Part shown: positions 2,053-62,242 of the stretch, in pieces
Layout: each line of letters opens with the position of its first letter
How positions within the stretch are numbered: the stretch's first letter is position 1
Assembly (NCBI GenBank): GCA_030679035.1
Contig: JAUXTH010000015.1
Location: 1-64,000 of the forward strand
Origin: Methylobacter sp.
Lineage (GTDB): Bacteria; Pseudomonadota; Gammaproteobacteria; Methylococcales; Methylomonadaceae
Length of the DNA stretch: 64,000 nt
Direction of reading: 5' to 3'
Translations under genes and position numbers: made by a program
Notes under the pieces: generated by a model
The model's database searches: none
The model's input: the letters and a program-made list of their open reading frames with translations, nothing else
Told to the model about the DNA's origin: nothing

Positions 2053-2094
2053 GTGCTTTGCCGCACCGACTACATTCAGCTTCGCAGGTATTGT
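2053..2094 (+). promoter_or_regulatory. Dyad promoter 1, upstream of PRC-barrel gene
   Basis: Dyad GTGCTTTGCCGCAC at 2053-2066, -35 CCGACT at 2066-2071 and -10 TATTGT at 2089-2094. The -10 starts 36 nt after the dyad start, giving a predicted +1 near 2101 and a dyad centre at -41.5. The sequence after the dyad resembles that of the glgP promoter. Confidence 0.65.
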
Positions 2095-2201
2095 TTGTCC
2101 GTGGGCGATATAAAGCATCATTCTCGCTCGTATTATCGGGCTCTGGCGATCTCAAAAATGAACGTAAGCCCCTACTAACATCATTCTAACAGGAGATGAA
2201 C

Positions 2202-2621
2202 ATGAACTACGAAGATCGCGATACCTATGGTATTTACAAAAGCAAAACCGGCAAAGGACCTGGACCCCGCCTGATGGGCGCCAACACCCTAATTGGAAAT
2301 GACGTCTGCAACCGAAAAGGCGAAAATATCGGTGACATCAAGGAAATCATGTTGGACACCTTCAGCGGTAAAGTGTGCTATGCGGTATTGTCCTTTGGTG
2401 GATTCCTCGGAATGGGGGAAAAACTTTTTGCGGTACCTTGGGACGCGTTAAAGCTCGATACAGAGCACAAGCGCTTCGAGCTAAACATGGAGAAGGATCG
2501 CCTCGAAAAGGCACCGGGATTCGATAAAAATAACTGGCCCGACATGGCAGACCAGTCTTGGGTGGATGAAATTCATTCTTACTATGGGACTAAACCGCAA
2601 CACAGTCAGTCGTGCATGTGA
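2202..2621 (+). CDS. PRC-barrel domain protein
   Basis: A 139-residue soluble protein with one PRC-barrel domain at about residues 25-105 (NTLIGNDVCNRKGENIGDIK, then VCYAVLSFGGFLGMGEKLFA and VPWDALKLD). PRC-barrel proteins of this size are common stress-associated or photosystem-like beta-barrel proteins of undefined biochemistry. It has no signal peptide, unlike the paralogue at 14458-14997, which shares the FGGxLGxGxKLFAxPW core and the C-terminal APGFDKxxWPD motif. I prefer the ATG at 2202 because the AGGAG at 2191-2195 abuts the in-frame ATG at 2196 but is 6 nt from 2202. A dyad promoter lies 100 bp upstream. Confidence 0.85.
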   Translation: MNYEDRDTYGIYKSKTGKGPGPRLMGANTLIGNDVCNRKGENIGDIKEIMLDTFSGKVCYAVLSFGGFLGMGEKLFAVPWDALKLDTEHKRFELNMEKDRLEKAPGFDKNNWPDMADQSWVDEIHSYYGTKPQHSQSCM

Positions 2622-2921: not shown

Positions 2922-3251
2922 CATTGTCAGATTGTTAAAGCAGTGTTTTTTTATTTATTCGTCCCTCTAATTTCTGATGGAGAAGTATGACTAAAGCGTC
3001 AATGCTCCCTTATTTATAATAGGTCGACGCACTACATGCAATAGCGGCAGCAGCCGCATAGCGGTCAAAACCATATGGCATAAATCATGACGCACAGGCT
3101 GAACAAGGTATTTACGGTTTTCCAAGAGTACTTATCCTAATTTTACATTCTAGCAAAGGGGGCCATCATGCAAATCAGAAGCAAAAAAAACAACACCGAC
3201 GAATCCAATACAAAAGCGTACCTCAAAAACTTTAATCGCAAGGAGTTCACA

Positions 3252-3656
3252 ATGCCTAAATTATTAGGGTTAGTCACATTCATTTTGACGACGGGCCTGA
3301 TGCTGTCAACCGGCAGCGTCCAAGCTGAGCGTTTCACATCAATACTTGCGGCCAATTCGGAGCTCGAAAACACCGAGCGCAATGTTCGCGACAGTGGCGG
3401 CGCCACCCTCACACCGGAAGATCAAAAGGAATCTCGCGGCGATCGTAAGATTACGGCAGCCATCCGTCAATCTATCGTCAAAGACAAATCGCTGTCACTC
3501 GACGCGCATAACGCCAAGATCATCACCCGCAACGGTGTTGTAACCTTACGCGGGCCCGTCGAAAATTCTGCGGAAAAAATCAAACTGCAATCAATCGCCG
3601 AAAAAAAACGGGGCGTGAAGCAGGTGGATAATCAACTCGAACCCAAAGCGCCTTAA
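3252..3656 (+). CDS. Secreted BON-domain protein
   Basis: A 134-residue protein with a Sec signal peptide (about residues 1-26, ending GSVQA-ER) and one BON domain at about 65-130 (DRKITAAIRQSIVKDKSL, ITRNGVVTLRGPVE, IAEKKRGVKQVDNQL). BON domains occur in OsmY-type periplasmic stress proteins and are thought to bind membranes or other envelope components. I chose the ATG at 3252 because AGGAG at 3241-3245 precedes it and the signal peptide starts there. An in-frame ATG at 3168 would add 28 charged residues before the signal sequence. Confidence 0.85.
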   Translation: MPKLLGLVTFILTTGLMLSTGSVQAERFTSILAANSELENTERNVRDSGGATLTPEDQKESRGDRKITAAIRQSIVKDKSLSLDAHNAKIITRNGVVTLRGPVENSAEKIKLQSIAEKKRGVKQVDNQLEPKAP

Positions 3657-5252: not shown

Positions 5253-5294
5253 GTGCTCTACCGTACCGACTACAGTCAGCTTTGCAGCTAAAGT
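5253..5294 (+). promoter_or_regulatory. Dyad promoter 3, glgP
   Basis: Dyad GTGCTCTACCGTAC at 5253-5266, -35 CCGACT and -10 TAAAGT at 5289-5294, giving a +1 near 5301, 18 nt before the start codon. About 46 bp including the dyad and -10 is nearly identical to the site at 10342. Confidence 0.7.
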
Positions 5295-5318: not shown

Positions 5319-7862
5319 ATGAGCAAACAAACCCGTGTCAGCCACCCGATATACAGCCTTTTGCCCACCGAAGTCGAGGGGTTTGATTCCCTGGCGGAGC
5401 TGGCTCTGGATATGCGCTGGTCATGGAGTCATGCCACCGACCAGGTATGGAGGCAACTTGATCCGGAACTATGGAAACTCACTCAGAATCCTTGGGTGGT
5501 TCTACAGACGGTGTCTCGCGACCGGATAGAGCGCGTGTTGGCCGACCCCGTTTTCCGAAAAATCGTTGATGACCTGGTGCAGACTAGGCGGCAAACGGTG
5601 GAAGCGCCCGCCTGGTTTCAGCAACATCATCCGCAAGCTCCGTTGACCTGCATCGCATATTTCAGCATGGAATTCATGTTGAGCGAAGCGCTGCCCATTT
5701 ACTCAGGCGGACTCGGCAATGTGGCCGGTGATCAGCTCAAAGCCGCCAGCGATCTTGGCGTACCTGTGGTCGGCGTGGGACTGCTCTACCAACAAGGCTA
5801 TTTTCGCCAAGTGATTGACAAGAACGGAGCGCAACAGGCCCTGTTCCCGTATAACGACCCTGGACAGTTGCCGATAACGCCGTTACGCCAAGCCAACGGC
5901 GAGTGGCTGCGTTTGGAAATCGCCTTGCCCGGTTACTCAGTCTGGCTACGCGTCTGGCAGGTTCAGGTCGGCAGAGTAAAACTTTACCTGCTGGACAGCA
6001 ATGACGCGGCAAACTTCCCCGCTCATCGGGGGATTACCAGCGAACTGTACGGCGGCGGGCCGGAGCAACGCATCAAGCAGGAACTGATGCTCGGGATTGG
6101 CGGCTGGCGGCTGCTGCGTGCGCTGGGCATTCAGCCTGAAGTCTGCCACCTGAATGAAGGGCATGCCGCCTTCGCGGTGTTGGAGCGCGCCCGCAGTTTC
6201 ATGGAAGAGACCGCGCAGTCCTTCCAGGACGCTCTGGCCGTCACCCGGGCCGGAAACCTTTTCACCACCCATACGGCAGTGGCCGCCGGTTTTGATCGTT
6301 TCGCTCCGGCCCTTATCGAGCAATACCTCGGCGGTTATGCCAAGAATCTCGGTCTGACAGTCCACGATTTGCTGGCCCTAGGCCGCCAGAACCCGAACGA
6401 CTCGTCGGAAAGTTTCAATATGGCCTATCTGGCAATCCGCGGCAGCGGGGCGGTAAATGGCGTGAGTCGCTTGCATGGCAAAGTCAGCCGACACCTCTTT
6501 GAGCCTCTTTTTCCCCGCTGGCCGGTGAACGAAGTACCCGTCGGACACGTAACCAACGGCGTCCACATGCCGACCTGGGACTCGGCCCCGGCCGATGATC
6601 TATGGACGGAAGCCTGTGGCAAAGACCGCTGGCTGAGGCCGACGGAAACCATGGATCAAGACATCCGCCGTATTTCAGACATCAGGCTCTGGCAATTTCG
6701 CGCCGATGCCGGCAAGTGTCTGGTTGAATACGCCCGCGAGCGATTATCCCGGCAACTGGCCGCCTCCGGCGCGTCTCCCGAGGCGGTGGAGGAAGCGAAA
6801 CATCTATTTAACCCCACCGCATTGACCCTGGGTTTTGCGCGCCGCTTCGCGGCCTACAAGAGGCCGAACCTGCTGTTGCACGACCCGGATCGACTGCTTC
6901 GTCTTTTATCCAATGCCGAGCGACCGGTGCAACTCATCCTTGCCGGCAAAGCTCATCCGGCAGACCTGGAGGGGCAGGCCCTGATTCAGCAATGGACTCA
7001 TTTCATCCGACGCCCCGAGGTGCGCCCTCATGCGATCTTCCTCAGTGACTATGACATGCATTTGACTGAGCAGTTGGTGCAGGGCGTGGATGTCTGGATC
7101 AACACGCCAAGGCGGCCCTGGGAAGCGTGTGGAACCAGCGGCATGAAGGTGCTGGTCAATGGCGGCCTCAATCTGTCGGAATTGGACGGCTGGTGGGCGG
7201 AAGCCTACACACCTGAGGTGGGGTGGGCGTTGGGGGACGGCCAGGAACATGACCACGATCCTGCCTGGGACGCGGTCGAAGCCGACGCGCTCTACGACCT
7301 GCTTGAACACGAGGTGATCCCCGCGTTTTATACCGTCGATGACCGGGGCATTCCCACGGGCTGGGTGGCGCGAATGAGAGAAAGCATGGCGCAATTGACC
7401 CCGCGTTTCTCAGACAACCGCACAGTGCGCGAATACACCGAACAACATTACCTATCGGCAGCGGCCGCCTATCAATTGCGCATTGCCAATAAAGGCGCAA
7501 TCGGCAGGCAAATAGTCGAATGGCAGCGGAGTCTGGAACTGAAATGGGCCGCGCTACACTTCGGGGAAATTAAGGTAGAGACTGACGGCGAACAACACCG
7601 ATTTGAAGTTCAAGTGTATCTCGATGATCTTAATACGGAGGCAGTGCGAGTCGAACTTTATGCTAACGGCATTGACGGTAACGCACCCGAGCGAATGGAT
7701 ATGAAGCGCGTGCGGCAACCGGCCGATGCGTCGGACGGCAACGTTTACAGCGCGACTGTATCTGCGACCCGCCCCGCAACAGACTATACGGCGCGGATAA
7801 TACCGCACTGCGACGGTGTTGCGATCCCATTGGAAGCGGCTCACATCCTGTGGCAACGATGA
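5319..7862 (+). CDS. glgP: Alpha-glucan (glycogen) phosphorylase, DUF3417-type
   Basis: An 847-residue GT35 phosphorylase that releases glucose-1-phosphate from glycogen or maltodextrin ends with inorganic phosphate, using PLP. The N-terminus (LPTEVEGFDSLAELALDMRW SW) is the DUF3417 region of the long bacterial/archaeal type rather than the E. coli GlgP type. Also visible are YFSMEFMLSEALPIYSGGLG, the His-containing HLNEGHAAF, and the PLP region PWEACGTSGMKVLVNGGLN with the Schiff-base Lys. AAGGAG precedes the ATG. The last ~100 residues form an extra beta-rich tail. The gene stands apart from the glg/tre cluster 26 kb downstream, but both have the same promoter type, so breakdown and remodelling are probably co-regulated. 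Confidence 0.95.
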   Translation: MSKQTRVSHPIYSLLPTEVEGFDSLAELALDMRWSWSHATDQVWRQLDPELWKLTQNPWVVLQTVSRDRIERVLADPVFRKIVDDLVQTRRQTVEAPAWFQQHHPQAPLTCIAYFSMEFMLSEALPIYSGGLGNVAGDQLKAASDLGVPVVGVGLLYQQGYFRQVIDKNGAQQALFPYNDPGQLPITPLRQANGEWLRLEIALPGYSVWLRVWQVQVGRVKLYLLDSNDAANFPAHRGITSELYGGGPEQRIKQELMLGIGGWRLLRALGIQPEVCHLNEGHAAFAVLERARSFMEETAQSFQDALAVTRAGNLFTTHTAVAAGFDRFAPALIEQYLGGYAKNLGLTVHDLLALGRQNPNDSSESFNMAYLAIRGSGAVNGVSRLHGKVSRHLFEPLFPRWPVNEVPVGHVTNGVHMPTWDSAPADDLWTEACGKDRWLRPTETMDQDIRRISDIRLWQFRADAGKCLVEYARERLSRQLAASGASPEAVEEAKHLFNPTALTLGFARRFAAYKRPNLLLHDPDRLLRLLSNAERPVQLILAGKAHPADLEGQALIQQWTHFIRRPEVRPHAIFLSDYDMHLTEQLVQGVDVWINTPRRPWEACGTSGMKVLVNGGLNLSELDGWWAEAYTPEVGWALGDGQEHDHDPAWDAVEADALYDLLEHEVIPAFYTVDDRGIPTGWVARMRESMAQLTPRFSDNRTVREYTEQHYLSAAAAYQLRIANKGAIGRQIVEWQRSLELKWAALHFGEIKVETDGEQHRFEVQVYLDDLNTEAVRVELYANGIDGNAPERMDMKRVRQPADASDGNVYSATVSATRPATDYTARIIPHCDGVAIPLEAAHILWQR

Positions 7863-8814: not shown

Positions 8815-8856
8815 GTACGTCAGCGTACAGACAACATTCTTTGTGTAAAGGACAAT
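8815..8856 (+). promoter_or_regulatory. Dyad promoter 4, FAD oxidoreductase
   Basis: Perfect dyad GTACGTCAGCGTAC at 8815-8828, -35 CAGACA at 8828-8833 and -10 GACAAT at 8851-8856 with the 36-nt offset. Predicted +1 near 8863. Confidence 0.6.
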
Positions 8857-8937: not shown

Positions 8938-10143
8938 ATGAAGCACTATCAGTATTTGATCATTGGCGGCGGGATGACCGCAGCAGCCGCGGTGGATGGC
9001 ATCCGCGAAGTCGATTCAACCGGCGGCATCGGGCTGATCAGCGCGGAACTTGACACTCCATATGACCGCCCTCCTCTATCGAAGTCGCTTTGGAAGGGAA
9101 AACCTTTGGACGTCATCTGGCGCAAGACGGAGAACAAAGGCGTTAAGCTTCACCTTGGCCGTGTCATCAAAGAAATTCTTCCTCAGCAGAAACGTGTTGT
9201 AGACGACAAGGGAGACGTTTTCACCTATCAAAAACTCTTGCTGGCCACAGGCGGCAAGCCGCGACGCCTTCCGTTCGGCGGTGACCATATCATCTACTTC
9301 CGTACCTTGCCGGACTACCGGAATCTTCGCGCGCTCACCGAAACGGGGCAGCGGTTTGCCGTAATCGGTGGCGGGTTTATTGGTTCGGAGGTCGCGGCGG
9401 CATTGGCTATGAACGGGAAAGAAGTGGTGATGATTTTCCCCGACAAAGCTATTGTAGATCGCATATTCCCATGGCCTCTCGCTCAGTTTGTGTCCGACTT
9501 CTACCGGCAAAAAGGCGTTGAGATATTGGCAGGCGAAGAGATTGTCGGTTTGGAAACACGCGGCAACCAATGTGTTTTGAAAACGCATACTAACCGGGAA
9601 ATCGCGGTGGACGGCGTGGTGGCCGGAGTCGGCATCACGCCGAACGTCGAACTCGCTCAATCCGTGGGGCTTGAGGTGGAAAACGGAATCATCGTGGACG
9701 AATTCCTGCGTACCAGCCTTCCCGACATCTATGCGGCAGGAGACGTTGCCGCATTCTACAACCCTGCGTTGGGAAAGCGCATCCGGGTCGAGCACGAGGA
9801 CAACGCCAACTCCATGGGCCGATTGGCGGGGCGGAACATGGCAGGCAAGTCTGAGCCCTATCATCACCTGCCGTTCTTTTATTCCGATATGTTCGATTTG
9901 GGATACGAAGCCGTCGGCGAACTGGACTCGCGTTTGGAGACTTTTACCGACTGGAAGCGCCCCAACGAGGAAGGCGTCATCTACTACTTACAGAACGATC
10001 GCGTGCGGGGCGTGCTGCTGTGGAATGTCTGGGACCAAGTGGAAGCCGCTCGCCAATTGATTGCCGAGCCTGGTCCGTTCACTGTAAAGGATCTCAAAGG
10101 TCGGTTGCCGGCTAAGCCCCCAATCCCGAAACAGGATGCATGA
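8938..10143 (+). CDS. NAD(P)/FAD-dependent oxidoreductase, AIF/ferredoxin-reductase type
   Basis: A 401-residue flavoprotein. It has an FAD-binding Rossmann motif at the N-terminus (YLIIGGGMTAAAAVDGI), a second GxGxxG for NAD(P)H at about residue 142 (FAVIGGGFIGSEVAAALA) and the FAD-contacting motif DIYAAGDVA. The C-terminal ~90 residues (SDMFDLGYEAVGEL, VRGVLLWNVWDQVEAARQLI) look like the reductase/AIF C-terminal domain. The electron acceptor, possibly a ferredoxin or rubredoxin, is not encoded nearby. AGGAG precedes the ATG. A dyad promoter lies about 120 bp upstream. Confidence 0.88.
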   Translation: MKHYQYLIIGGGMTAAAAVDGIREVDSTGGIGLISAELDTPYDRPPLSKSLWKGKPLDVIWRKTENKGVKLHLGRVIKEILPQQKRVVDDKGDVFTYQKLLLATGGKPRRLPFGGDHIIYFRTLPDYRNLRALTETGQRFAVIGGGFIGSEVAAALAMNGKEVVMIFPDKAIVDRIFPWPLAQFVSDFYRQKGVEILAGEEIVGLETRGNQCVLKTHTNREIAVDGVVAGVGITPNVELAQSVGLEVENGIIVDEFLRTSLPDIYAAGDVAAFYNPALGKRIRVEHEDNANSMGRLAGRNMAGKSEPYHHLPFFYSDMFDLGYEAVGELDSRLETFTDWKRPNEEGVIYYLQNDRVRGVLLWNVWDQVEAARQLIAEPGPFTVKDLKGRLPAKPPIPKQDA

Positions 10144-10391
10144 GCAGCGAGCAGAGTCTCGACCGGCTCCAGCGTGCCGCGTTCGGCTACTTCCTGCATG
10201 CGGTAAATCCGGCCAATGGACTGATCGCCGACAACTCGCGCGAGAATTCGCCGACCAATCCCCCCAACCCTCTTCCAGGGAGGGAACAAGTTGTTGAAGT
10301 TATTTTGTGGGCGTTCCTTAAGGTATCGACACTGCCGGTATGTGCTCTACCGTACCGACTACAGCAAAGTTTGCGGCTAAAGTACCTTTAA
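10140..10391 (+). pseudogene. Truncated glycoamylase-like gene (N-terminus only)
   Basis: It starts in an ATGA overlap with the oxidoreductase, the arrangement of a real operon partner. The first ~40 residues (LQRAAFGYFLHAVNPANGLI, then ADNSRENSP) match the start of glycoamylase-like (PF10091-type) proteins, normally over 400 residues. After about 10260 the similarity ends and the frame runs on into the dyad promoter at 10342. The rest of the gene seems to have been lost or replaced by the segment carrying that promoter. Confidence 0.65.
10342..10383 (+). promoter_or_regulatory. Dyad promoter 5, BON/DUF883 operon
   Basis: Dyad GTGCTCTACCGTAC at 10342-10355, -35 CCGACT and -10 TAAAGT at 10378-10383. 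It is nearly identical to the glgP promoter over about 46 bp. The predicted +1 near 10390 leaves a leader of about 190 nt. Confidence 0.65.
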
Positions 10392-10580: not shown

Positions 10581-10895
10581 ATGAAATACCTAATTAGATT
10601 TTTCTCAGCATCTTTTTTGGTTCTGACGCTAATGACTGCCGCGGGTTGCGCATCAACGGAAAAGCACGAGGGAACTGGCGAGTATGTTGATGACAGTGTT
10701 ATCACCACCAAGGTTAAAGCAGCCATATTGAATGAGCCTGGCTTAAGCTCCGCCGAGATCAATGTTGAAACTTTCAAAGGCGAAGTTCAATTGAGCGGTT
10801 TCGTGACTTCACGAGCCGATATTAATAAAGCAGTCGCAGTTGCACGTAGCGTCAAAGGCGTACATTCGGTCAAAAATGACATGCGCCTCAAATAA
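10581..10895 (+). CDS. BON-domain lipoprotein (OsmY-like)
   Basis: A 104-residue protein with a lipoprotein signal (LTLMTAAGC, lipobox Cys about residue 23) and one BON domain (DDSVITTKVKAAILNEPGLS, KGEVQLSGFV, VARSVKGVHSVKNDM). It is anchored on the periplasmic side of a membrane. It is the first gene of an operon with DUF883 and YqjE-like genes. The grouping of a BON protein with these families is familiar from RpoS-type stress regulons of enterics. Confidence 0.85.
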   Translation: MKYLIRFFSASFLVLTLMTAAGCASTEKHEGTGEYVDDSVITTKVKAAILNEPGLSSAEINVETFKGEVQLSGFVTSRADINKAVAVARSVKGVHSVKNDMRLK

Positions 10896-10909: not shown

Positions 10910-11140
10910 ATGGAAACTATAGACAAAGCAGCTGATCTGGCCAATGAGGCTTACGATAAGATCGCCAGTACGACCCATCAGGCCGTTGAAACACTGGGCG
11001 AAAAAGGCGAACAACTGATAAATGCCGAACAGCACTTAATGAAGAATTGTCGCGGTTATGTCCGCGATAATCCCATAACGTCGGTAGTTATCACGGCAGC
11101 GGTCAGCTTTGTTCTGGGCCGTCTATCGAGCCGACGCTAG
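10910..11140 (+). CDS. DUF883 (ElaB/YqjD/YgaM) family protein, copy 1
   Basis: A 76-residue tail-anchored protein. An amphipathic helical region (METIDKAADLANEAYDKIAS, then LGEKGEQLINAE) is followed by the family signature NCRGYVRDNPITS and one C-terminal membrane span (VVITAAVSFVLGRLSSRR). E. coli YqjD and ElaB of this family bind ribosomes at the inner membrane in stationary phase; the same role here is inference. It starts 14 bp after the BON gene and uses ATG, while copies 2 and 3 use GTG. Confidence 0.85.
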   Translation: METIDKAADLANEAYDKIASTTHQAVETLGEKGEQLINAEQHLMKNCRGYVRDNPITSVVITAAVSFVLGRLSSRR

Positions 11141-12852: not shown

Positions 12853-12894
12853 ATGATAGAGAATTATCAAGATTTTTTCTGTACGTTGCCGCAC
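12853..12894 (-). promoter_or_regulatory. Dyad promoter 6, candidate sRNA
   Basis: On the minus strand: dyad GTGCGGCAACGTAC (12894-12881), -35 CAGAAA (12881-12876) and -10 TATCAT (12858-12853; 5 of 6 consensus bases) with the 36-nt offset. The only thing downstream on this strand before the terminator is the candidate sRNA. Confidence 0.62.
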
Positions 12895-13498: not shown

Positions 13499-13777
13499 TT
13501 ATTTGTTGTCCTTAATGTCCTTCTTTAGATCGCCATAGCCCGCCTGAGCCTTGCCGAGATTCTTTTGGACATTGCCTTCTATCTCCATACCTTTGTCGTC
13601 CAGTACCTTGCCGGTGACTTCCTTGACTTTACCTTTGGCTTCTTCGACGCGGCCTTTTACCTGATCTTTGTTCACATTGGTCTCAATCTTGATTTCTTCG
13701 GCATAAACGCCAAACGAACAGAAGGTCAAAAGAATAGCTGCCAATAAGCCGGTGTGTTTCATGTTGGTAAGTTTCAT
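13499..13777 (-). CDS. Exported CsbD-like protein
   Basis: A 92-residue protein. A signal peptide (MKLTNMKHTGLLAAILLTFC, then SFGVYA-E) is fused to a complete CsbD domain (NKDQVKGRVEEAKGKVKEVT, DDKGMEIEGNVQKNLGKAQA, YGDLKKDIKDNK). CsbD proteins are small stress proteins usually without a signal peptide, as in the neighbouring gene at 13845. I prefer the ATG at 13777 because AGGAA is well spaced to it; an in-frame ATG at 13783 adds two residues. If exported, this would be a periplasmic CsbD. Confidence 0.82.
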   Translation of the reverse strand: MKLTNMKHTGLLAAILLTFCSFGVYAEEIKIETNVNKDQVKGRVEEAKGKVKEVTGKVLDDKGMEIEGNVQKNLGKAQAGYGDLKKDIKDNK

Positions 13778-13795
13778 ATTCATTTCCTGTGAAAA
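13700..13795 (-). repeat. Duplicated leader/signal-peptide segment, copy B
   Basis: The partner of 13336-13430, covering the leader and signal-peptide codons of the exported CsbD gene. Confidence 0.85.
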
Positions 13796-14116: not shown

Positions 14117-14158
14117 ACAATACACGCAAAACTGAATGAGGTCGGTGCGGCAACGAAC
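14117..14158 (-). promoter_or_regulatory. Dyad promoter 7, csbD operon
   Basis: Minus strand: dyad GTTCGTTGCCGCAC (14158-14145), -35 CCGACC and -10 TATTGT (14122-14117) with the 36-nt offset. The predicted +1 near 14110 gives a leader of about 77 nt. The -10, -35 and part of the spacer resemble those of the other csbD promoter at 18545. Confidence 0.68.
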
Positions 14159-14324: not shown

Positions 14325-14366
14325 GTTCGATACCGTACCGACGATGTTTTATACATTAGATAAACT
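14325..14366 (+). promoter_or_regulatory. Dyad promoter 8, secreted PRC-barrel gene
   Basis: Dyad GTTCGATACCGTAC at 14325-14338, -35 CCGACG and -10 TAAACT at 14361-14366. Both the dyad and the -10 are the same as in promoter 10 (19160-19201). Predicted +1 near 14373. Confidence 0.65.
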
Positions 14367-18242: not shown

Positions 18243-18283
18243 AGTTGTGCAGCAGTCCAACTTGGACGGACTGCTACACAACT
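18243..18283 (-). terminator. Hairpin after csbD
   Basis: AGTTGTGCAGCAGTCC and GGACTGCTACACAACT pair over about 15 bp with one mismatch and a 9-nt loop, just after the csbD stop. The T-run of the following repeated block lies about 25 nt further on. Confidence 0.55.
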
Positions 18284-18297
18284 CAACAGCTCTCGTG

Positions 18298-18480: not shown

Positions 18481-18544
18481 GAGTTTCTCCTGATAATTAA
18501 TTTTGTTATGACCCAAAGCATGGGAGATTTCCCATTGCTCACAC

Positions 18545-19595: not shown

Positions 19596-19601
19596 GTAGA
19601 T

Positions 19602-38092: not shown

Positions 38093-38099
38093 GAACACC

Positions 38100-51652: not shown

Positions 51653-52456
51653 TTAAACGCGAGTCTTGTCACAAACAAACATACCTTTATCATAGTGTTC
51701 TCGGGACGACTCAACTCCATGATTCATTGGAAGGCTCTTAACGGTTGCTATATCGCAGAGCAAGCGTTGGAATTCTTTCTTGACTACGTTGTAACATTCG
51801 CAAGCGCGGGACTCTAATCCCAACCGATCAAGTACCGTGATGTGACCTCGGCGGTAACTGATCAAGCCGGCGCGCTGTAAATTCCCGGCGGCTTCCGTAA
51901 TGCCTTCGCGACGTACGCCGAGCATACCGGCAATCAATTCCTGTGTCATAGTCAATTCATTCGAGGGCAATCGATCGAGGGTTAACAATAGCCAGCGACA
52001 CAATTGCTGCTCTATCGAATGATGCCGATTGCAGGCCGCAGTTTGGGACATCTGTGTAATTAATGCCTGGGTGTAACGCAGCATCAACCGCATCATCGGC
52101 CCCGCGCAATTGAATTCCTCAATCATCAACCGCCCTTTCAGTCGGTAACCGTAGCCCGCAGTCTGTACGGTGGCACGACTGGGCGTGGTATTGCCGCCCA
52201 TGAAAAGTGAAATTCCGAGTACACCCTCATTGCCCACTCCCGCGACTTCGGACGATGCGCCATTCTCCATGAGATAGTGCAGGGACACGATAGCGGTCGT
52301 CGGGAAATAAACGTGTTGCAATTGGCCGCCGGATTCGTAGAGAACTTCACCGAGCGGCATCGAGATCAGCTCCAGATGAGGGGCGATATGCTCGAATATT
52401 TTCGTAGGCAGGGCGGCGAGAAGATGGTTCTGATTGGGGGCATGCCGAGCGGACAT
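51653..52456 (-). CDS. Crp/Fnr-like transcription regulator 3
   Basis: A 267-residue paralogue of the regulators at 25461 and 27907. The beta-roll (VLYESGGQLQHVYFPTTAIV, NGASSEVAGVGNEGVLGISL) and the recognition region (MLGVRREGITEAAGNLQRAG) are conserved, with a longer C-terminal tail of ~30 residues. I chose the ATG at 52456, which aligns with the starts of the other two; the frame is open to 52528. The near-identical recognition helix suggests that all three bind the same DNA sequence. Confidence 0.85.
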   Translation of the reverse strand: MSARHAPNQNHLLAALPTKIFEHIAPHLELISMPLGEVLYESGGQLQHVYFPTTAIVSLHYLMENGASSEVAGVGNEGVLGISLFMGGNTTPSRATVQTAGYGYRLKGRLMIEEFNCAGPMMRLMLRYTQALITQMSQTAACNRHHSIEQQLCRWLLLTLDRLPSNELTMTQELIAGMLGVRREGITEAAGNLQRAGLISYRRGHITVLDRLGLESRACECYNVVKKEFQRLLCDIATVKSLPMNHGVESSREHYDKGMFVCDKTRV

Positions 52457-52651
52457 AAGGGCGACCATCTTCTTGCCTCTGGATAGAGTGACCAATAGGG
52501 CGGAAATAAAAACACAGCGGAACAGCAAAGGTTAAGACTTTAAAATCTACATTGTGTATTCCTTCTTATAACACACTATTCCAAGGAGAGTCGGTAAGGT
52601 TTAGGCGTTTGAACTCGAATAACACGAAAAAAACACGATTGAAATAAACAG

Positions 52652-53446: not shown

Positions 53447-56400
53447 CTAGCCCATTACCACCAACACCTGATGATTCTGCCCATCGTGCAACAACGGAAT
53501 ACCGTCGCCCTCTGCTTGCGGCACTCCGTCCAATTCAATCAACACGATGCCTTTCGATACGCCACCGGGATTGTTTATGGTGATTTCATAGTGAGTGTCT
53601 TCGTGTTGATAACTTAAACTGTAACTGCGCCAGTCACTCGGAATACAAGGATTGAAATGAATTTTGTCGCCACGAATATTCAGGCCCAACAACCATTCCA
53701 GTCCGGCACGGTAAAACCATCCTGCGGCGCCTGTGTACCAGGTCCAACCACCGCGCCGCACATGGGGCGGTACGGCATAAATATCCGCCGCTATCACATA
53801 CGGCTCGACTTTGTAGGCATAGACTCCAGTCCGATTAGCGGTACGATTGATCGGGTTCAGCATATGCAGAAGATCGGCTGCCTGATCGCCGTCTCCGAGC
53901 ATCGCGTAGGCGATAACGCACCAGATTGCCGCATGGGTATATTGCCCGCCATTTTCCCGTACGCCCGGCAAGTAACCTTTGATGTAACCGGGATCGAGCA
54001 GTGTCTTATCGAAGGGTGGCGTAAACAGCAGCACCAGGCCGTCGCCGTATTGGATCAGGTATTCACGTACCGAATTCATCGCCTGCCGCGCCCGCTCGGG
54101 GTCGGCGGCGCCGGAAATAACACCCCAACTCTGAGCCAGCGAATCAATGCGGCACTCCGTGTTGGATGCAGACCCCAACGGCGTCCCGTCATCATAATAG
54201 GCGCGCCGGTACCAGGATACATCCCATCCTTCAGCTTCCACCGCAGCCTTTAACTTGGCTACGTGTTCGCGCCAACGTACGGCGTGCTCGATATCTCCGC
54301 GCAGTTCTGCCACATCGGCAAATTCCGTCAACGTAGCGATCAGGAACCAGGCGAGCCACACGCTCTCGCCTTTGCCCAAATGACCCACCCGGTTCATGCC
54401 ATCATTCCAGTCACCGCTACCCATCAACGGCAGACCGTGTGCGCCGACTTTCAAGCTCGAATCCAGCGTTCGCGCACAGTGCTCAAACAGGCTGGCTTGT
54501 TGCTCCGATGGAGTCGGCTCGAAATAGGCATCTTCCTGTTCCGGGTCAAGTACAGGCCCTGCCAGGAACGGCGTTATTTCATCGAGTACAGCCCTGTCGC
54601 CGCTCACCTTGACATAGTGAGCCACCACATACGGCAGCCAGATAAGATCATCGGAGAAATGGGTGCGCACGCCGCGATTGGAAGGCGGGTGCCACCAATG
54701 CTGCACATCGCCCTCGACAAACTGATGCGTCGCGGCACGGAGGATATGTGCGCGGGCAAGATCCGGCCGGGCTACCGCAAACGCCATGCTGTCCTGTAAC
54801 TGATCGCGAAAACCGAAGGCCCCGCCTGCCTGATAAAATGCGGCTCGCGCCCACATTCGACAGCTCAAGGTTTGATACAGCAGCCAACCGTTCAACATCA
54901 AGTCCAGCCCTCTATCCGGCGTTTTTACCTGAATTTTTCCGAGTGTCTTAGACCATGATTGTTTTACGTCGGTGAAGGTTTTCTGCATATCCGCAGATCG
55001 ATAACGCTTGACCAGTTCGCCGGCATGGTCGCGGTCACTGCCCTGCCCCAACAGGAAAACAAGCTCGATGCTCTGATCGACTGCAAGTTCTACCTGTGTT
55101 GTCAGTGCCGCACATGGATCAAGCCCTGCTCCAACACGACTTTTAAGCGCCCTGGACTGAGTCAAGGCTATCGGCGCATCCAGGCTGCCGTTACGGCCGA
55201 TAAATTCAGTCCGATTGCAAGTCCAGGCCGTTTGCAGGCCGGCAAGATCGACAAAGGCAATACGCTGACCAAAATCCATATCCAAGTGGTTATAGACAAA
55301 CACGGCTCCGGTGGCTTGATCCAACTCAGTAATAATATAAGGCGCCGTGTTGGTGCGAGAGGCGCCTAGCACCCATTCGACATAGGCTGTAACCGATAGT
55401 TTACGGGGGCGGCCGGAATTGTTTTTCAAGGTTAGCGTTGAAATTTTGATCGGGTCGTCCGAACTTACAAATTGCAGCAGCTCGCTATGAATACCGTGAG
55501 AAGCATGCTCGAAACGACTGTAGCCCTGGCCATGGCGAATCACATAGCTGGCGTTATCCACTCGAATCGGTAACGCTGTCGGCGTCCACAAATCGCCTGT
55601 CTCGTCGTCCTGTATATAAAATATTTCGCCGGGAGGATCGCTGACCGGATCGTTCGACCATGGCGTCAACTGGTTCATGCGGCTGTTAAGGCTCCAGGTA
55701 CAGCCACCGCCCAGCTCAGAAACCGTAAACCCGAATTCAGCATTGGCGATCACGTTAATCCAGGGTGCCGGCGTCCATTGCCCCTTGCCCAGCACTATGA
55801 CATATTCGCGCCCGTCATCGGCAAACCCACCCAGCCCGTTAAAATATTCGAGGTCCGTAGTGGCGATTAATGGTGCGCTGCTGTCGACACCGGGTGCAGA
55901 CAAGGCTTTGGGTTGGATAAAATCCGGCGTAGGCTTGGGATGCCGCATCAGCTGTTCAGCCAAGGTACCTCTGCTGCTCAAAAGCACTGCGCGAGCCGAG
56001 GTTTGCAATAGCACGCGCTCCTCCTCGGAGAGTTGATCTGCGCGCAGCACAAAAATCTCTCCTTGCCCTCCGTACTCATGACTTGCTGCAAACGCTTGGT
56101 TTTCGCGGACCATGCCTTCCAATAAGTTCTGCAATTCATTGCTGTAGGTAATTTCTTTTTCATTCAGAATCACCAAATCGACCGACAAACGTTTCATGCG
56201 CCAATATTCGTGGGCGCGCAATAACTGATCGGCAATAGCCCGATCTTCTATTGACGCTAACCGCAGCAATACAATGGGACGATCACCGGAAATACTGAGC
56301 CTCCATAAACCGGTGACATTTAACCGGTTCAGCTTCATCAGCTTGCTGTTCGCTCGCAGCGAAGCATCGGCATAGAGCAATCGATTAGCCAGGGCTTGAA

Positions 56401-59400
56401 ATAATTGGGCTTCGTCAGGCTTAATGCGCAGATGCCGTAATTGGATCTGAGCATGAGTCCAGGCAAGATCGGAAACCCGGTTAAAAGTAGCTGAGTTGTG
56501 ATACTTATCGGCTAAATCTTCAACCACCTGCCGTGACGAAGCAACCAACGTGGTAAATGTCACATGAACAGTCGCGCCCGGTTCGATGCTGACTCGTGTA
56601 CGCAGACTGAAAATAGGATCGAGCACCGCGCCGACCGTATTGCTGAGCGGGCGTCCATCGATCACTGCGGCAGGTGCACGCAGTGTTTGTCCCCGACCGC
56701 AAAATTTTACCCGGTCGGTTTCATATTGCAGTCCTGCACCGATGTCGTTGCACGCCAGCACATGAGCCGCCCAAATCCGCGGATCATTCTCTGCCCGAGG
56801 CCGCCGTTGCGCGAGCAGTCCGCACGCCTGCGGCAGGAATTCGGTCTGTATGAACAAATTTGAAAATGCGGGATGAGCGCTATCAGCCGTAGGTGGCGCC
56901 AGCACGATTTCCGAGTAGGAGGTCACCTCGATTTCCTGTGTATGCGAGCCGTTATTGGTCAAACTCAAGCACCGGATTTCCGCGTCATCCTCAGGCGAGA
57001 CAATGATTTCCAGGCGACTGGCTATGGTGTTGTCTTCGCGGGAGATGCGCACCCGGTCTTCGAGAAAGACCACTTCGTATCGATCGGGAAGCGCCGCAGT
57101 CGGCTGGTATCCCGCAGACCAAATCCTGCCGCTGGTCAAATTGCGCAAATAGATAAAACTGCCCCAACAATCGCGCGTCACATCTTCGCGCCAGCGAGTG
57201 ACCGCCAGCTTTTCGCAAACACTGTAGCCCGAACCGGCTGCGGTGATCATCACCCCGTAACGGCCGTTGGAAAGTAAATGCGTTGAGGGCACGAGGGACA
57301 TCGGCGAAGGCTCGCGGCGCACTGACGGCTGTACTATTTCTTTTACTTCGGCTTCAGCCTGGGTGAAGGCGGGAATGCCGCTGTCAGCACCGTGCGGAAC
57401 CCGCTCCTGCAACAGCATTTCAGCGCCCTGAATCATCGGGGTGCTATGGAAACGACGGCGCATAGCCTCATCGTTTACGACATTAGCCAAAGCCACCAAC
57501 GACATACCTTGATGATGCGCCATATAGCAGCGCACAAACGCCACTTTTTGATCTTCCGCGAGACGCGTCGGTGTGAAATCGAGCGCTTCGAAAAAGCCGT
57601 AACGCCCCAATGCGCCCAATTTTTCCAGGCGCTCAAAATTCACTACCGCAGCATGGTTGTTGTACATCGCCGCCAAGGCTGTCGCATAGGGGGCAATGAC
57701 CAAATCAAAGGCAAGTCCGCGCTTCATGCCCAGGCCGGGCACGCCAAAAGCGGAATACTGATAAGTGAACCAACGGTCGCGACCATTAAACGCCGATTCG
57801 GATACGCCCCACGGCACACTTTGCTGTTCACCGTATTCAATCTGACTCTGCACGGACAAACGACAGGTCTGATCGAGCAGGCTGTAGCGCGGCGAATAAG
57901 TCACCAGCGAAGGCATCAGGTATTCAAACATCGAGCCGGACCAGGACAACAACACCGTGCCGTTCGCGGTGCGTGTCACCCGTCTCCCTAAGTGAAACCA
58001 ATGCGTGCTCGACACGTCCCGCTTGGCGATAGCGATTAAGCTGGTCAGGCGCGCTTCCGAGGCGAGCAGATCGTAATAGCTGTCGTCGATGACACCGCTT
58101 TCAACGCGATACCCCAGCGAAAACAAGTGCCGGTTTTGATCATAGAGGAAACGAAAATCCATCTCGACGAATAATTGATGGGCCAGTTCCGCAAGCGCAT
58201 TTACCCGGTGGGTCAATACTGTCCAGCGCTGGACTTCCGGTTGCGTAGGGTCGTCAAGGGGAAGCTCAAAATGGATCGACGAACCAAAGTTTTCCATGTC
58301 GCGCTCGTGAGAGTGGATGTCACTGTGCAGCAGTGTGGCCCATGCCAGCACTTCGCTGTCATCCATCAATTCGCCGCGCTCAGCGGCATAAGTGCGAGCA
58401 AAATCCAATAGGTTATCGGCGCATGGGGTTATTTGCCGCCACAAATAGACCCATTCTTCGTGGCTGGTAGGCTTACACGCCAAAAAGCCGCCAAGTTTAT
58501 TCGCTTTTTTATGCAGCTCTTCCTGTGTCACTATCAGCATACGCTGGTCATCATTGATTTTGGCAAGTGCCGATAACAGCAGCCTGTGGGTATCGGAAAT
58601 ACCGTCTAACACGACGGAAAACGCATAGGGTTGCTGCGTCAATTCTTTACATCCTTGAATAAGAACCAGTAGATGTCCTGCCAAATTGCCGCTATCCACG
58701 GTCGATACATACTTGGGTTCCAGCGGGTGCAAGCTGCGCGTGTCGTACCAGTTATAAAAATGTCCATGCAGTCGCGGCAGCTTGTTCAGCGTGTCCAGGG
58801 TTGCCTCTAGCCGATCAACGGTGTCTATCAACCCCAACCAGCCAAAATCGTGCGCGGCAAGTACGGATAGCAGATAAAGACCGAAATTTGTCGGCGAACT
58901 GCGATTAGCGATAATGGGCTCAGGATCTTCCTGAAAATTATCCGGCGGCAGATGATTTTCCTGCTCCGTCACGAAGGTGGTAAAAAATCGCCAGGTACGC
59001 CGGGCGACTTGTCGTAACTGCAATGCATCTTCTGGAAGTAATAATTCAGCCGGATCCCGTCTCGGCGGCAAACTCAGGATATGGGCAACGATTGGCGACA
59101 ATAACCACAACAACAGGAACGGCGCGGCAACTCCCATCGAATCAGGATTGAACAGCAGCACGACCGAACCGGCGCAAACGACTACGATAGTTACGCTGCC
59201 CAGAGGCCGAATAAGGCTCTCCAAAGCATGCCCCGCCGATGTCTTCGCTTGCAGCGCAGTGACCCACCTGAGCAATTTTTGTCGGGTGATAAACAGCCGC
59301 ACCAAGGTGCTGACGATAGCGTCAGTCATCAACCAAGCCTGCTGCGCCAGCAGGGTTAGCGTAACCAGGCTATGGCTTAATCCCATGAATACATTTTCTG

Positions 59401-61984
59401 TCGTGGAGCGAATCTGGTTACGCAGCGGAATGTCGGTGCGAAGTCTCATTCCAGCAACGATGGCCAGTAAGGCAGGAGCAGTCAACGCTATCAACACCAT
59501 TCCCATCAGTATCCATTGCGGCGCGTTCGGAATAGCCCAAGCCGCCAACAGGGTAAAAAATGCGCCCGGTGCTGAAAAAGTCCGGCGTAAATTATCCAGC
59601 ATTTTCCAGCGTCCTATCAGCGGCATGCCTTTGCCGAGGGAACCAAAAATCCAGGGTAATAACTGCCAGTCGCCACGCGCCCAACGGTGCGAGCGGGACG
59701 CGGCAACTTCCGTATGGGATGGAAATTCTTCAAACAATTCAACATCGCTTATAAATGCACAGCGAGCGAACACGCTCTCGAATAAATCATGACTAAGCAA
59801 GGTGTTTTCCGGGACGCGTCCTGCCAACGCGGCTTCAAAGGAGTCGACCTCATACAAGCCTTTGCCGCTGTATGTCCCGAGCCCGAACAAATCCTGATAG
59901 ACTTCGGACACCGCCGTCGAATAGGCGTCCATACCGCATGCGCCGGAAAAAAGCTGATGAAACAACGAATGCTCCCGTCTGTGCGGCAGGGTCGGTGTAA
60001 CTCTTGGCTGGAGAATACTGTATCCGCTGGTTACGCAATGCGTGACCGGATCAAGGACAGGCCAATTGAGCGGATGGGCGGCTGTACCTACCAACTGTTG
60101 CACCGCGCCGATAGGCAGTTTGGTGTCAGCATCCAGGGTAATGACATAACGAACACCCGGCGGAGCAAACGCAGGTTTTCCATGGATCGGCATAAACGAA
60201 GTGTCTTCTGCCCCGCGCAGCAGTCGATTAAATTCATGCAACTTGCCGCGCTTGCGCTCCCAGCCCATCCATATTTTCTCGCTGGGGTTCCACTCGCGTT
60301 TACGGTGATACAGGAAAAAGCGCTGATCTCCGTACTTGGCATTAAGCGCGTCAACCCCGGCAATGGCGATGTTCAACAGCAAGGCATCGTCCGGCATGGT
60401 TTCCTGATCCGCATCCACCCAATCGGATAACAGGGCAAAACGGGCATCGCCGGCCGGATTGGACAAATAGTGGACCTCCAGATCATCGATTTGTTTTTGT
60501 ACGTTCTGCTCGCTGATAAACATGGTCGGCACCACCACAAAGGTGCGCAACGTATCAGGGATGCCTTCCTTCAGTTCGAGTCTGGGTAAATGGCGTGGCG
60601 GCACGACGGTAATAACGAAGCGGTTGACCATGCTCGTGGCAATATCCGAAGCCGGAAATAGGGCAAACAGCGCAATCAGGAAAATCGGAAAAACGCCTAG
60701 CCCAGACTCAAAAGCAACGCTCAACGGCAGGGCCAGCAAGATCAGTGTACATACGCCCAGACTACCCAGATAAGCAACCGCCGCATGCGCGACATAAGCG
60801 CGCAGTAATTTTTGGCTGAAGGTAGGACGAAAGCCGACTTCTTGTTCGAACTCGCCCCGACCGGCGCCGATCAAGTAGTAGCCCGGCTCCTGTAGCTGCC
60901 GGTCGGCGCCAGATTCTTTACCAACACGATCAATCTTGTCGATGACTTTTTGGGCGATTTCCACTTCGGAATGCGGCGAACGTTTAGCAAGATCTTCAAT
61001 CGCATGCCGGTAGCGGTCACGGGTAAGAAAATCCATCGCGATGTAAGTGGGGTGAATGCGCAGACATTTATCCACCAGACTCGAATCTTCAACAAATTGC
61101 GGCCAGTCGAACGCCGATATGGCGCGCATGCTGGTGATGATATTGCGCACGGTCAGATTGGCGGCAATCTGACTGGCGTGTTCACGATGGACTATTTCAT
61201 CCAGCGTGACGCCCTGTTCGTCCAGCCATTGATTCAGAAAATCGAGTGTAGGCGCAGGCCCCGGATGCGGCTCATGCAAGCGTTGTACAATCTGAACCGC
61301 AAAAGCCTGGCGCAAAGGAGCTGAGGGTAGAATGGGAGTCTTGGCCGGAAAATCGGGCTTTTCGGGTTGATCGATAAAATCGTCAGCCAACTGCCGCCCG
61401 GCTTGTGAACGCATGACTTTTAACGCCAACCGACGCAGATTCTCGATCATTACGATACGTAGCGTGATCGGTAGTGCCCAAAGCTCGCCAATACTGAGCG
61501 GCTGAACTTCCTGATACGCACGCATGAAACAAGCCAGTTGTTCATGAGAAAAACGGCTATCGGTATGAGCAACCAGCGCCCAGGCAATGCCGTAGACACG
61601 CGGATAACCGAAAAGGAAACCCCCGGTTAATTTGGGTAATTGATTGTAAAATTTTTCCGGCAGGTAGAGGTTGATGTCATTGATCTGCTCTTCAATCACA
61701 TGAAAATTGTCGAGCAACCATTCTGCGGCCGGAGTAATGGCTCGATGCTCACGCGCCGCCTTGCCTATGGCTTTGTAAGCTTCAAACAACAACCGGGAAT
61801 TCTCGCGCACCCTCGGCATCAGCTTGAGTCCGTCAGGGCGAACTTCGGCTTTTTGCGCTTTCGCTAAACTGGCGGCATGCTGTTCCATCCGTTCATTGCT
61901 AAACAACTCAAACCGGATTGGCTCATCCTCACCGCCTGGATCAGCAAGCCTGGCCTTCCGTCTATGATTCCCCAATTTCATCAT
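53447..61984 (-). CDS. ndvB: Cyclic beta-glucan synthetase (NdvB/ChvB-like)
   Basis: A 2845-residue membrane protein of the cyclic beta-1,2-glucan synthetase family, which builds, cyclises and trims periplasmic glucans from UDP-glucose. In order: an N-terminal helical region; membrane spans near 400-460; a GT84 domain (RYVITLDADTKLPIGAVQQL; SRSHRWARGDWQLLPW); further spans near 800-990; a glycoamylase-like domain at about 1000-1500; and two GH94 phosphorylase-type regions, the second with GSGDWNDGMNRVGHLGKGES containing the catalytic Asp. GGGGGA precedes the ATGATG. Cyclic glucans serve osmoprotection and envelope integrity, in keeping with dyad promoter 17 upstream. Confidence 0.92.
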   Translation of the reverse strand: MMKLGNHRRKARLADPGGEDEPIRFELFSNERMEQHAASLAKAQKAEVRPDGLKLMPRVRENSRLLFEAYKAIGKAAREHRAITPAAEWLLDNFHVIEEQINDINLYLPEKFYNQLPKLTGGFLFGYPRVYGIAWALVAHTDSRFSHEQLACFMRAYQEVQPLSIGELWALPITLRIVMIENLRRLALKVMRSQAGRQLADDFIDQPEKPDFPAKTPILPSAPLRQAFAVQIVQRLHEPHPGPAPTLDFLNQWLDEQGVTLDEIVHREHASQIAANLTVRNIITSMRAISAFDWPQFVEDSSLVDKCLRIHPTYIAMDFLTRDRYRHAIEDLAKRSPHSEVEIAQKVIDKIDRVGKESGADRQLQEPGYYLIGAGRGEFEQEVGFRPTFSQKLLRAYVAHAAVAYLGSLGVCTLILLALPLSVAFESGLGVFPIFLIALFALFPASDIATSMVNRFVITVVPPRHLPRLELKEGIPDTLRTFVVVPTMFISEQNVQKQIDDLEVHYLSNPAGDARFALLSDWVDADQETMPDDALLLNIAIAGVDALNAKYGDQRFFLYHRKREWNPSEKIWMGWERKRGKLHEFNRLLRGAEDTSFMPIHGKPAFAPPGVRYVITLDADTKLPIGAVQQLVGTAAHPLNWPVLDPVTHCVTSGYSILQPRVTPTLPHRREHSLFHQLFSGACGMDAYSTAVSEVYQDLFGLGTYSGKGLYEVDSFEAALAGRVPENTLLSHDLFESVFARCAFISDVELFEEFPSHTEVAASRSHRWARGDWQLLPWIFGSLGKGMPLIGRWKMLDNLRRTFSAPGAFFTLLAAWAIPNAPQWILMGMVLIALTAPALLAIVAGMRLRTDIPLRNQIRSTTENVFMGLSHSLVTLTLLAQQAWLMTDAIVSTLVRLFITRQKLLRWVTALQAKTSAGHALESLIRPLGSVTIVVVCAGSVVLLFNPDSMGVAAPFLLLWLLSPIVAHILSLPPRRDPAELLLPEDALQLRQVARRTWRFFTTFVTEQENHLPPDNFQEDPEPIIANRSSPTNFGLYLLSVLAAHDFGWLGLIDTVDRLEATLDTLNKLPRLHGHFYNWYDTRSLHPLEPKYVSTVDSGNLAGHLLVLIQGCKELTQQPYAFSVVLDGISDTHRLLLSALAKINDDQRMLIVTQEELHKKANKLGGFLACKPTSHEEWVYLWRQITPCADNLLDFARTYAAERGELMDDSEVLAWATLLHSDIHSHERDMENFGSSIHFELPLDDPTQPEVQRWTVLTHRVNALAELAHQLFVEMDFRFLYDQNRHLFSLGYRVESGVIDDSYYDLLASEARLTSLIAIAKRDVSSTHWFHLGRRVTRTANGTVLLSWSGSMFEYLMPSLVTYSPRYSLLDQTCRLSVQSQIEYGEQQSVPWGVSESAFNGRDRWFTYQYSAFGVPGLGMKRGLAFDLVIAPYATALAAMYNNHAAVVNFERLEKLGALGRYGFFEALDFTPTRLAEDQKVAFVRCYMAHHQGMSLVALANVVNDEAMRRRFHSTPMIQGAEMLLQERVPHGADSGIPAFTQAEAEVKEIVQPSVRREPSPMSLVPSTHLLSNGRYGVMITAAGSGYSVCEKLAVTRWREDVTRDCWGSFIYLRNLTSGRIWSAGYQPTAALPDRYEVVFLEDRVRISREDNTIASRLEIIVSPEDDAEIRCLSLTNNGSHTQEIEVTSYSEIVLAPPTADSAHPAFSNLFIQTEFLPQACGLLAQRRPRAENDPRIWAAHVLACNDIGAGLQYETDRVKFCGRGQTLRAPAAVIDGRPLSNTVGAVLDPIFSLRTRVSIEPGATVHVTFTTLVASSRQVVEDLADKYHNSATFNRVSDLAWTHAQIQLRHLRIKPDEAQLFQALANRLLYADASLRANSKLMKLNRLNVTGLWRLSISGDRPIVLLRLASIEDRAIADQLLRAHEYWRMKRLSVDLVILNEKEITYSNELQNLLEGMVRENQAFAASHEYGGQGEIFVLRADQLSEEERVLLQTSARAVLLSSRGTLAEQLMRHPKPTPDFIQPKALSAPGVDSSAPLIATTDLEYFNGLGGFADDGREYVIVLGKGQWTPAPWINVIANAEFGFTVSELGGGCTWSLNSRMNQLTPWSNDPVSDPPGEIFYIQDDETGDLWTPTALPIRVDNASYVIRHGQGYSRFEHASHGIHSELLQFVSSDDPIKISTLTLKNNSGRPRKLSVTAYVEWVLGASRTNTAPYIITELDQATGAVFVYNHLDMDFGQRIAFVDLAGLQTAWTCNRTEFIGRNGSLDAPIALTQSRALKSRVGAGLDPCAALTTQVELAVDQSIELVFLLGQGSDRDHAGELVKRYRSADMQKTFTDVKQSWSKTLGKIQVKTPDRGLDLMLNGWLLYQTLSCRMWARAAFYQAGGAFGFRDQLQDSMAFAVARPDLARAHILRAATHQFVEGDVQHWWHPPSNRGVRTHFSDDLIWLPYVVAHYVKVSGDRAVLDEITPFLAGPVLDPEQEDAYFEPTPSEQQASLFEHCARTLDSSLKVGAHGLPLMGSGDWNDGMNRVGHLGKGESVWLAWFLIATLTEFADVAELRGDIEHAVRWREHVAKLKAAVEAEGWDVSWYRRAYYDDGTPLGSASNTECRIDSLAQSWGVISGAADPERARQAMNSVREYLIQYGDGLVLLFTPPFDKTLLDPGYIKGYLPGVRENGGQYTHAAIWCVIAYAMLGDGDQAADLLHMLNPINRTANRTGVYAYKVEPYVIAADIYAVPPHVRRGGWTWYTGAAGWFYRAGLEWLLGLNIRGDKIHFNPCIPSDWRSYSLSYQHEDTHYEITINNPGGVSKGIVLIELDGVPQAEGDGIPLLHDGQNHQVLVVMG

Positions 61985-62200
61985 CTGTATTCCCCCGTTT
62001 GGACTGCCGCTTGGTCAAGCTTTTACTCCTCTTTTGTAGTCTACTGGGCTACGGAGCAATGGGCGGTAACGGCGCCGGCATTGCATGTGTCATCCTTGAC
62101 CAGAGATTGAGTACCGCCCGACAGAACCAAAATAGACTTGAGGGTTAAACAGCACCTGTTTTGTGACAAGTACCACTCATCGTTTCAGGCACTAAAAGGC

Positions 62201-62242
62201 AGTGTAATCGCAACATTTAGCGTCGTCAGTACGGTAACGCAC
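62201..62242 (-). promoter_or_regulatory. Dyad promoter 17, ndvB
   Basis: Minus strand: dyad GTGCGTTACCGTAC (62242-62229), -35 CTGACG and -10 TACACT (62206-62201) at the 36-nt offset. The +1 near 62194 leaves a 210-nt leader. The dyad is the same as at promoter 12. Confidence 0.65.

Follow-up and report, generated by a model that had tools for sequence, protein, structure and literature searches.

Class II activators of the CRP and FNR type bind a site centred at −41.5, with the sequence TGTGA-N6-TCACA for CRP and TTGAT-N4-ATCAA for FNR, and a 5-4-5 dyad is the geometry of the Crp/Fnr superfamily. NtcA of cyanobacteria recognises GTA-N8-TAC, with a −10 box about 22 nt further on, and the sites of FNR, FixK and DNR are of the TTGAT type. 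In cyclic-nucleotide binding proteins such as GlxR, the Glu of the phosphate-binding cassette has a role in binding. The FNR/FixK/DNR regulons of alphaproteobacteria were assigned by comparative genomics and phylogenetic profile and, as far as the excerpted text of that study goes, those regulators differ from the ones described here in belonging to another subgroup, which controls anaerobic metabolism (PMC2908626). In the excerpted text of a study of Azotobacter, trehalose and glycogen synthesis and a BON-domain protein are brought together under one stress regulator, AlgU, much as is proposed here, but AlgU is an ECF sigma factor whereas our candidate is a dyad-binding activator (PMC10651043).

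We analysed a promoter element and its probable regulator in a 64,000-nucleotide stretch of Methylobacter sp. DNA, the whole of which is referred to as the window. The system resembles CRP and FNR in its Crp-like helix-turn-helix (HTH) and fold, its 5-4-5 dyad, its predicted −41.5 centre and its sigma70-like −10 box, but differs from them in its half-site (TGTKCG) and its recognition helix (RREGVTEAA). What it shares with NtcA is the −10 spacing, a Val at the cassette position, the Crp fold (Foldseek matched 9guk and 2xko to the model of paralogue 2) and, at some sites only, the outer bases GTA/TAC; the other helix residues and the targets are different. The NtcA equivalog model scored 32.4 and 23.7 bits for two of the three window paralogues, against a cut-off of 244.95, and did not match the third. 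The 17 copies of the element are very probably binding sites, as predicted from sequence, of the family of Crp/Fnr-type proteins encoded beside them.

The element and its promoter layout in the window

The original prediction placed 17 copies of a dyad close to GTRCG-N4-CGYAC in the window, and all 17 were recovered at the same coordinates and on the same strands. These sites are far beyond chance and all are intergenic: every one falls outside the 42 listed coding sequences, which make up 0.78 of the window (binomial P = 5e−12). Four perfect 5-4-5 inverted repeats were also confirmed, at 2880, 8815, 18573 and 27050. The strict dyad was present in 9 of the 17 sites, the other 8 each being one half-site position off, and the longer asymmetric form TATGTGCGnTACCGTACnGAC describes the sites better, with columns G1, T2, C10, G11, A13, C14, G16 and A17 invariant in all 17.

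We built a 21-column matrix from the 17 sites and scored them leave-one-out, which gave 15.8 to 30.6 bits, although this scoring is not wholly independent because 5253 and 10342 have an identical dyad. Over 60 dinucleotide shuffles of the window, the best score per shuffle averaged 12.4 bits with a maximum of 17.8, so that 16 of the sites scored above all shuffles and the weakest, 8815, lay within the shuffle range. Places above 14 bits averaged 0.2 per shuffle; the window had 21, four of the 17 sites being read on the second strand as well. A full-model scan of the window found no other strong site, the next independent place scoring 9.8 bits at 52161, and a search of the window against Rfam matched no family. 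One further site was found on the same contig just beyond the window, at 64704. The dyad is identical at three promoters, 5253, 10342 and position 49158 of contig C196, and this looks like a duplicated promoter segment.

On the forward strand, the sites at 2053–2094 (−10 box TATTGT) and 14325–14366 (TAAACT) precede PRC-barrel genes (2196–2621 and 14458–14997), and those at 2880–2921 (TAATCT) and 10342–10383 (TAAAGT) precede BON genes (3168–3656, and 10581–10895 together with a DUF883 gene at 10910–11140). Also on this strand, 5253–5294 (TAAAGT) lies before an alpha-glucan phosphorylase gene (5319–7862), 8815–8856, which has GACAAT instead of TANNNT at offset 22, before a pyridine-nucleotide/FAD oxidoreductase (8938–10143), 28781–28822 (TATTGT) before a DPBB/RlpA-like gene (28960–29520) and 33774–33815 (TAAGGT) before a run of branching-enzyme/GlgE/alpha-amylase-family genes (34009–48663). 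On the reverse strand at 29500–33377, a KaiC-like double ATPase is encoded next to a GGDEF-EAL protein and a small ORF that has no match in Pfam.

Among the reverse-strand sites, 14117–14158 (TATTGT) precedes a CsbD gene (13499–13783), 19160–19201 (TAAACT) a DUF3096 gene (18988–19128) and then a DUF3309 gene (18758–18916), 27653–27694 (TAAGCT) an ORF at 27127–27546, and 27022–27063, whose −10 box TATGCT is one base nearer, a gene for a probably secreted protein (26554–27027). Two more, 25292–25333, with its −10 box TAATCT one base further, and 62201–62242 (TACACT), have downstream of them the squalene-hopene cyclase gene shc (23096–25285) and an ndvB-like GH94 gene (53447–61984), though a search of about 350 nt from either site gave no SD-preceded start. 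No SD-preceded ORF of at least 40 aa was found downstream of 12853–12894 (TATCAT) or of 19602–19643 (TATGTT), the latter lying before an apparent broken OmpA-type frame, judged by eye, and the SD-preceded ORF downstream of 18545–18586 (TATTGT) has only 60 aa and is perhaps a gene remnant. Apparent gene remnants, with frames judged by eye, were seen at 18247–18594 (CsbD-like) and 19231–19643 (OmpA-like); both keep the full element.

Column counts over the 17 sites gave three conserved blocks, namely TAT plus the dyad (positions −2 to 14), GA(C) (16–18) and T-A-N-N-N-T (37–42), and TT-N-C at positions 30–33 was also common. A −10-like hexamer (score > 3) was found at an offset of 22 nt in 14 of the 17 sites, with 8815, 25333 and 27063 missing the exact spacing, and in at most 3 sites at any other of the 44 offsets tried (0–43). 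This fixed distance between dyad and −10 box had been overlooked in the original prediction. Taking positions 37–42 as the −10 box puts the dyad centre at −41.5 from the predicted start and makes GAC coincide with the −35 element, 17 bp of spacer separating the two boxes, and class II CRP and FNR promoters have this same layout. The evidence for class II activation at these promoters is moderate; the GAC at −35 could also be interpreted as part of a sigma-factor site.

A 52-column, sequence-only model found 22 sites in the whole genome at E ≤ 0.01: the 17 on which it was trained, the one which comes next on the window contig, two on contig C172 and one each on C196 and C50. It should be noted that, of the 18 sites on one 65-kb contig, 17 had trained the model. 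The strict short dyad was not enriched genome-wide, with 18 places against 40 for a reversed control, per strand, and 10 of the 18 were on the window contig; only the longer element or the local density is therefore informative. In the scans of this genome and its relatives which had been proposed with the original prediction, the longer element survived the refuting conditions, and the strict dyad on its own lacked genome-wide enrichment. The longer element is mainly intergenic, and in methanotroph relatives it is conserved close to similar types of gene.

Crp/Fnr-like regulators and the element in other genomes

The likely regulator, overlooked in the original prediction, is a Crp/Fnr-type protein encoded in three copies in the window: paralogue 1 at 25431–26273 (+), paralogue 2 at 27901–28638 (+) and paralogue 3 at 51653–52528 (−). 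A C-terminal HTH_Crp_2 domain was above cut-off in all three (E = 7.3e−15, 5.4e−16 and 4.5e−14, respectively), and the cNMP_binding profile was above cut-off in paralogue 2 and slightly below it in the other two. The identities of the other two to paralogue 1 are 74 and 54%, and the recognition helices (LGVRREGVTEAA in paralogue 1, LGVRREGITEAA in paralogue 3) are near-identical. When all 17 candidates in the genome were scored, only these three were found at E ≤ 1e−60. Paralogue 1 is divergent from shc, with the site 25333(−) in between, and the site 27694(−) lies, divergently, 207 bp upstream of paralogue 2. An AlphaFold model of paralogue 2 (pLDDT 75) matched structures of GlxR, FNR, NtcA and CRP with E values of about 1e−11 to 1e−9. 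In a phmmer alignment to GlxR, which was solved with cAMP, the position of the cassette Glu is occupied by Val in the window regulator, as in NtcA, and cAMP is therefore not assumed to be the effector. The genome does encode four class III cyclases over cut-off, so that cyclic nucleotides may yet act as effectors, and it also encodes RpoS.

A protein search with the three window genes gave at least 584 relatives, and the best 80 were used as loci; these came from Methylobacter, Methylomonas, Nitrosomonas, Halomonas, Variovorax, Ralstonia and others. The window matrix, which has no columns in the −10 region, gave 357 matches above 14 bits on both strands of the 80 loci (1.316 Mb), while the reversed matrix gave 7 and six column-shuffled ones gave 1 to 9. 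After joining of strands and removal of duplicates, 271 distinct sites remained in 77 of the loci, and 3 of the 80 had no site. TANNNT was present at offset 22 in 135 of the 268 readable held-out sites and in 0 to 18 at other offsets from 5 to 44, so that the class II arrangement, an activator centred at −41.5 with a −10 box at a fixed distance, was found in the sequence of half of these sites as well as in the 14 of the window. By group, this was 72 of 100 sites in loci titled as methanotroph and 63 of 168 in the remaining loci. In the held-out sites, conservation was seen in the dyad and its adjoining TAT, in GA(C) and in the −10 box, with near-random columns in between. Crude ORFs of at least 120 aa, which cover 80% of the bases, contained 77 of the 271 sites, and a same-strand ORF start lay 15–450 nt downstream of 177. 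In 49 of the 80 loci a site lay in the 500 bp before the regulator stretch that had been matched or in the opening 60 bp of that stretch, where about 9 loci would be expected at the overall density; most of these sites point towards the divergent neighbour, away from the regulator gene. The evidence that links the predicted regulator to the element is good.

The presence of the site near more distant homologues depended on the recognition helix, which we read by profile alignment; these homologues mostly come from genomes outside the window's class, presumably Alphaproteobacteria. In the first 20 stretches, strict GTNCG-N4-CGNAC was present in 7 of the 8 with helix RRxxVT and in none of the 12 whose helix differed (control pattern: 2 stretches in each group), but because the RRxxVT rule was drawn from these stretches post hoc, and at least L132, L133 and L145 had been picked with the site already known, only the later 40 stretches count as a test. 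These were fetched after the prediction had been written down, with L190 and L191 chosen, to extend the set, from the window's own class, to which L189 likewise belongs. The strict site was present in 11 of 21 later stretches with RRxxVT and in 0 of 19 with other helices (P = 1.9e−4), compared with 1 of 21 and 5 of 19 for the control pattern, a result that connects the site with the recognition helix of the regulator itself. The written prediction had said that “most” RRxxVT loci would have the site; 10 of the 21 had none, so that it held for about half. Quite different helices, such as VQRT and GARRNSVS, were seen in L135, L139, L148 and others of L132 to L191; the stretches with helices of this type hold no strict site, and presumably other sites are used there.

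These results also bear on whether the whole element could be the promoter of an alternative sigma factor, its dyad symmetry being incidental. The −35-like GAC and the TANNNT at a fixed distance would suit such a promoter, as would the sigma control of BON-domain stress proteins elsewhere, which the excerpted text on Azotobacter describes for AlgU (PMC10651043); we nevertheless consider it very unlikely, given that the dyads are strong and several are exact palindromes, that TANNNT occurs at offset 22 on the opposite strand in 23 of the 271 held-out sites (0 to 8 at other offsets), which is compatible with a symmetric operator, and that the element is linked to the Crp/Fnr gene and its helix.

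We also compared regulator and element across 199 Pseudomonadota genomes, our own included, counting the element with one mismatch allowed. The mean number of elements was 5.2 (reversed control 1.8) for the 18 genomes besides our own that have close homologues, 0.88 (control 0.40) for the 25 with distant homologues and 0.81 (control 1.15) for the 155 without a match at E ≤ 1e−40. The close-homologue and no-match genomes differed for the element (Mann–Whitney: P = 1.2e−9) and not for the control (P = 0.14), with the split between strong and weak homologues set after the data had been seen. Three or more elements were found in 12 of the 155 genomes without the regulator, and in 19 for the control. 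Within a set of 41 genomes of the family (elements at E ≤ 0.001, regulator at E ≤ 1e−60), the element was present in all 22 genomes with the regulator (21 of 21 minus our own) and in 2 of the 19 without (Fisher: P = 1.1e−9, own genome included), but because genomes share history the P values of these comparisons are too small and independence is overstated. The two genomes with elements yet no such regulator at the cut-off were G214 (1 element) and G230 (2 elements), the latter from a genus whose other member, G204, also has no regulator. Two further genera are split, one genome having both traits and the other neither: one between G206 and G232 and one between G235 (19 elements) and G209 (none).

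In near-complete relatives the elements were clustered near the regulators, with six of seven within 45 kb in G221 and seven of nine within 74 kb in G233; G207 has seven, and the six that were listed span no more than 75 kb, while the four elements of G224 are scattered. This clustering, together with presence in only 22 of the 41 family genomes, suggests that the predicted regulator and elements form an island which is gained or lost as one unit. In G207, G208, G211 and G233 a second, more distant Crp-like paralogue (207–227 bits) adjoins the first, in tandem or divergently.

The same family genomes bear on a LuxR-type response regulator (796–1491, with a histidine kinase at 17–835) which might bind the element in place of the Crp/Fnr proteins. 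Of the 22 family genomes with the Crp-like gene, 16 have its orthologue, and of the 19 without, none does, at a cut-off (E ≤ 1e−80) fixed after the table had been seen; the response regulator thus travels with the system. We rejected it as binder on six genomes (G199, G202, G206, G207, G212 and G235, with 3 to 19 elements each) which keep the Crp-like gene and the element with no close LuxR-type orthologue; moreover, whether distant homologues have the site nearby depends on their Crp recognition helix, and a 5-4-5 dyad at −41.5 is Crp/Fnr geometry. Binding by this protein is thus extremely unlikely, and it looks like a partner rather than the binder. A 97% identical copy of it lies at the same coordinates on another contig (C123, 796–1488), and a 73% copy at C123 position 71198, which may reflect a duplication or a strain variant at a contig start. 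It is hardly credible that the element is a REP-like or otherwise mobile repeat which multiplied by copying and regulates nothing, despite the three identical dyads and the concentration of genome sites on one, largely training, contig, as held-out sites are conserved only in the dyad and its TAT, in GA(C) and in the −10 box, and neither the exact −10 spacing nor the intergenic placement would be expected of a repeat.

The proposed switch and its target genes

We consider it highly likely that the element serves as operator-promoter for an activator of the Crp/Fnr superfamily, three copies of which are encoded in this part of the genome. A dimer of whichever paralogue acts would bind TATGTKCG-N4-CGNAC, centred at −41.5 and overlapping the −35 region, and would touch RNA polymerase in the manner of class II activation, switching on the −10 box 22 nt downstream of the dyad; an effector would be sensed via the N-terminal cNMP-like domain. 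The regulator appears to turn on envelope-protection and storage-sugar genes, and the targets in methanotrophs would serve envelope, hopanoid and glucan/trehalose-type functions.

The target families in the window include PRC-barrel, BON, CsbD, DUF3096/DUF3309, squalene-hopene cyclase and glucan phosphorylase, with further targets among branching-enzyme/GlgE/alpha-amylase-family genes, the ndvB-like GH94 gene and the DPBB/RlpA-like protein. For the other loci, we surveyed 80 of the 172 genes that come first after a high-scoring site and compared them with 80 control genes from the same loci, matched roughly in length. The first genes included 7 CsbD, 5 BON, 5 squalene-hopene cyclase, 3 DUF3096 and 7 Crp-like HTH genes, and the controls 6 Crp-like HTH genes and 1 cyclase, with CsbD, BON and DUF3096 at no more than 1 each, being absent from the 25 families shown. 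The claim that a shared promoter element marks a regulon is supported by the intergenic placement and by the conservation near the same kinds of gene. Among 58 of the 93 first genes in loci not titled as methanotroph, we found 6 Crp-like genes, 5 with PAS domains, 3 TPS-secretion, 3 fatty-acid desaturase, 2 CsbD and 2 BON genes; the target families thus differ there, and the stress label is not simply transferable. The predicted switch is common to these lineages and its regulon is lineage-specific, the stress reading resting on the methanotroph targets. The original description of a “stress regulon” is plausible from those target families and weaker outside the methanotrophs, and protection under osmotic, stationary or desiccation stress is suggested as the most likely role within them.

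We searched the literature for a published regulator with this site and saw none among the matches listed, in agreement with the original prediction, although this is a weak test as the slashed term “Crp/Fnr” is unsearchable. The matches listed for the motif letters look unrelated by title, and among those listed by gene family there was no link of a Crp/Fnr regulator to CsbD or BON genes. The proteins form a predicted Crp/Fnr subgroup with a conserved operator-promoter, of which no description was found in the literature searched. We would suggest tentatively, and with rather more doubt than belief, that this is a self-contained, horizontally moving stress-response island, in which a Crp/Fnr-type master activator moves together with the genes it controls and works alongside RpoS as a general switch for envelope and osmolyte stress, helix and operator being kept or co-evolving across the classes of Pseudomonadota.

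For a common branch of the Crp/Fnr superfamily, with at least 584 relatives, these results predict the operator, the promoter geometry, a rule for the recognition helix and a set of targets, and they make the function of this branch directly testable in cultured methanotrophs. One switch may tie together CsbD, BON, PRC-barrel and DUF3096 genes, whose role is obscure.
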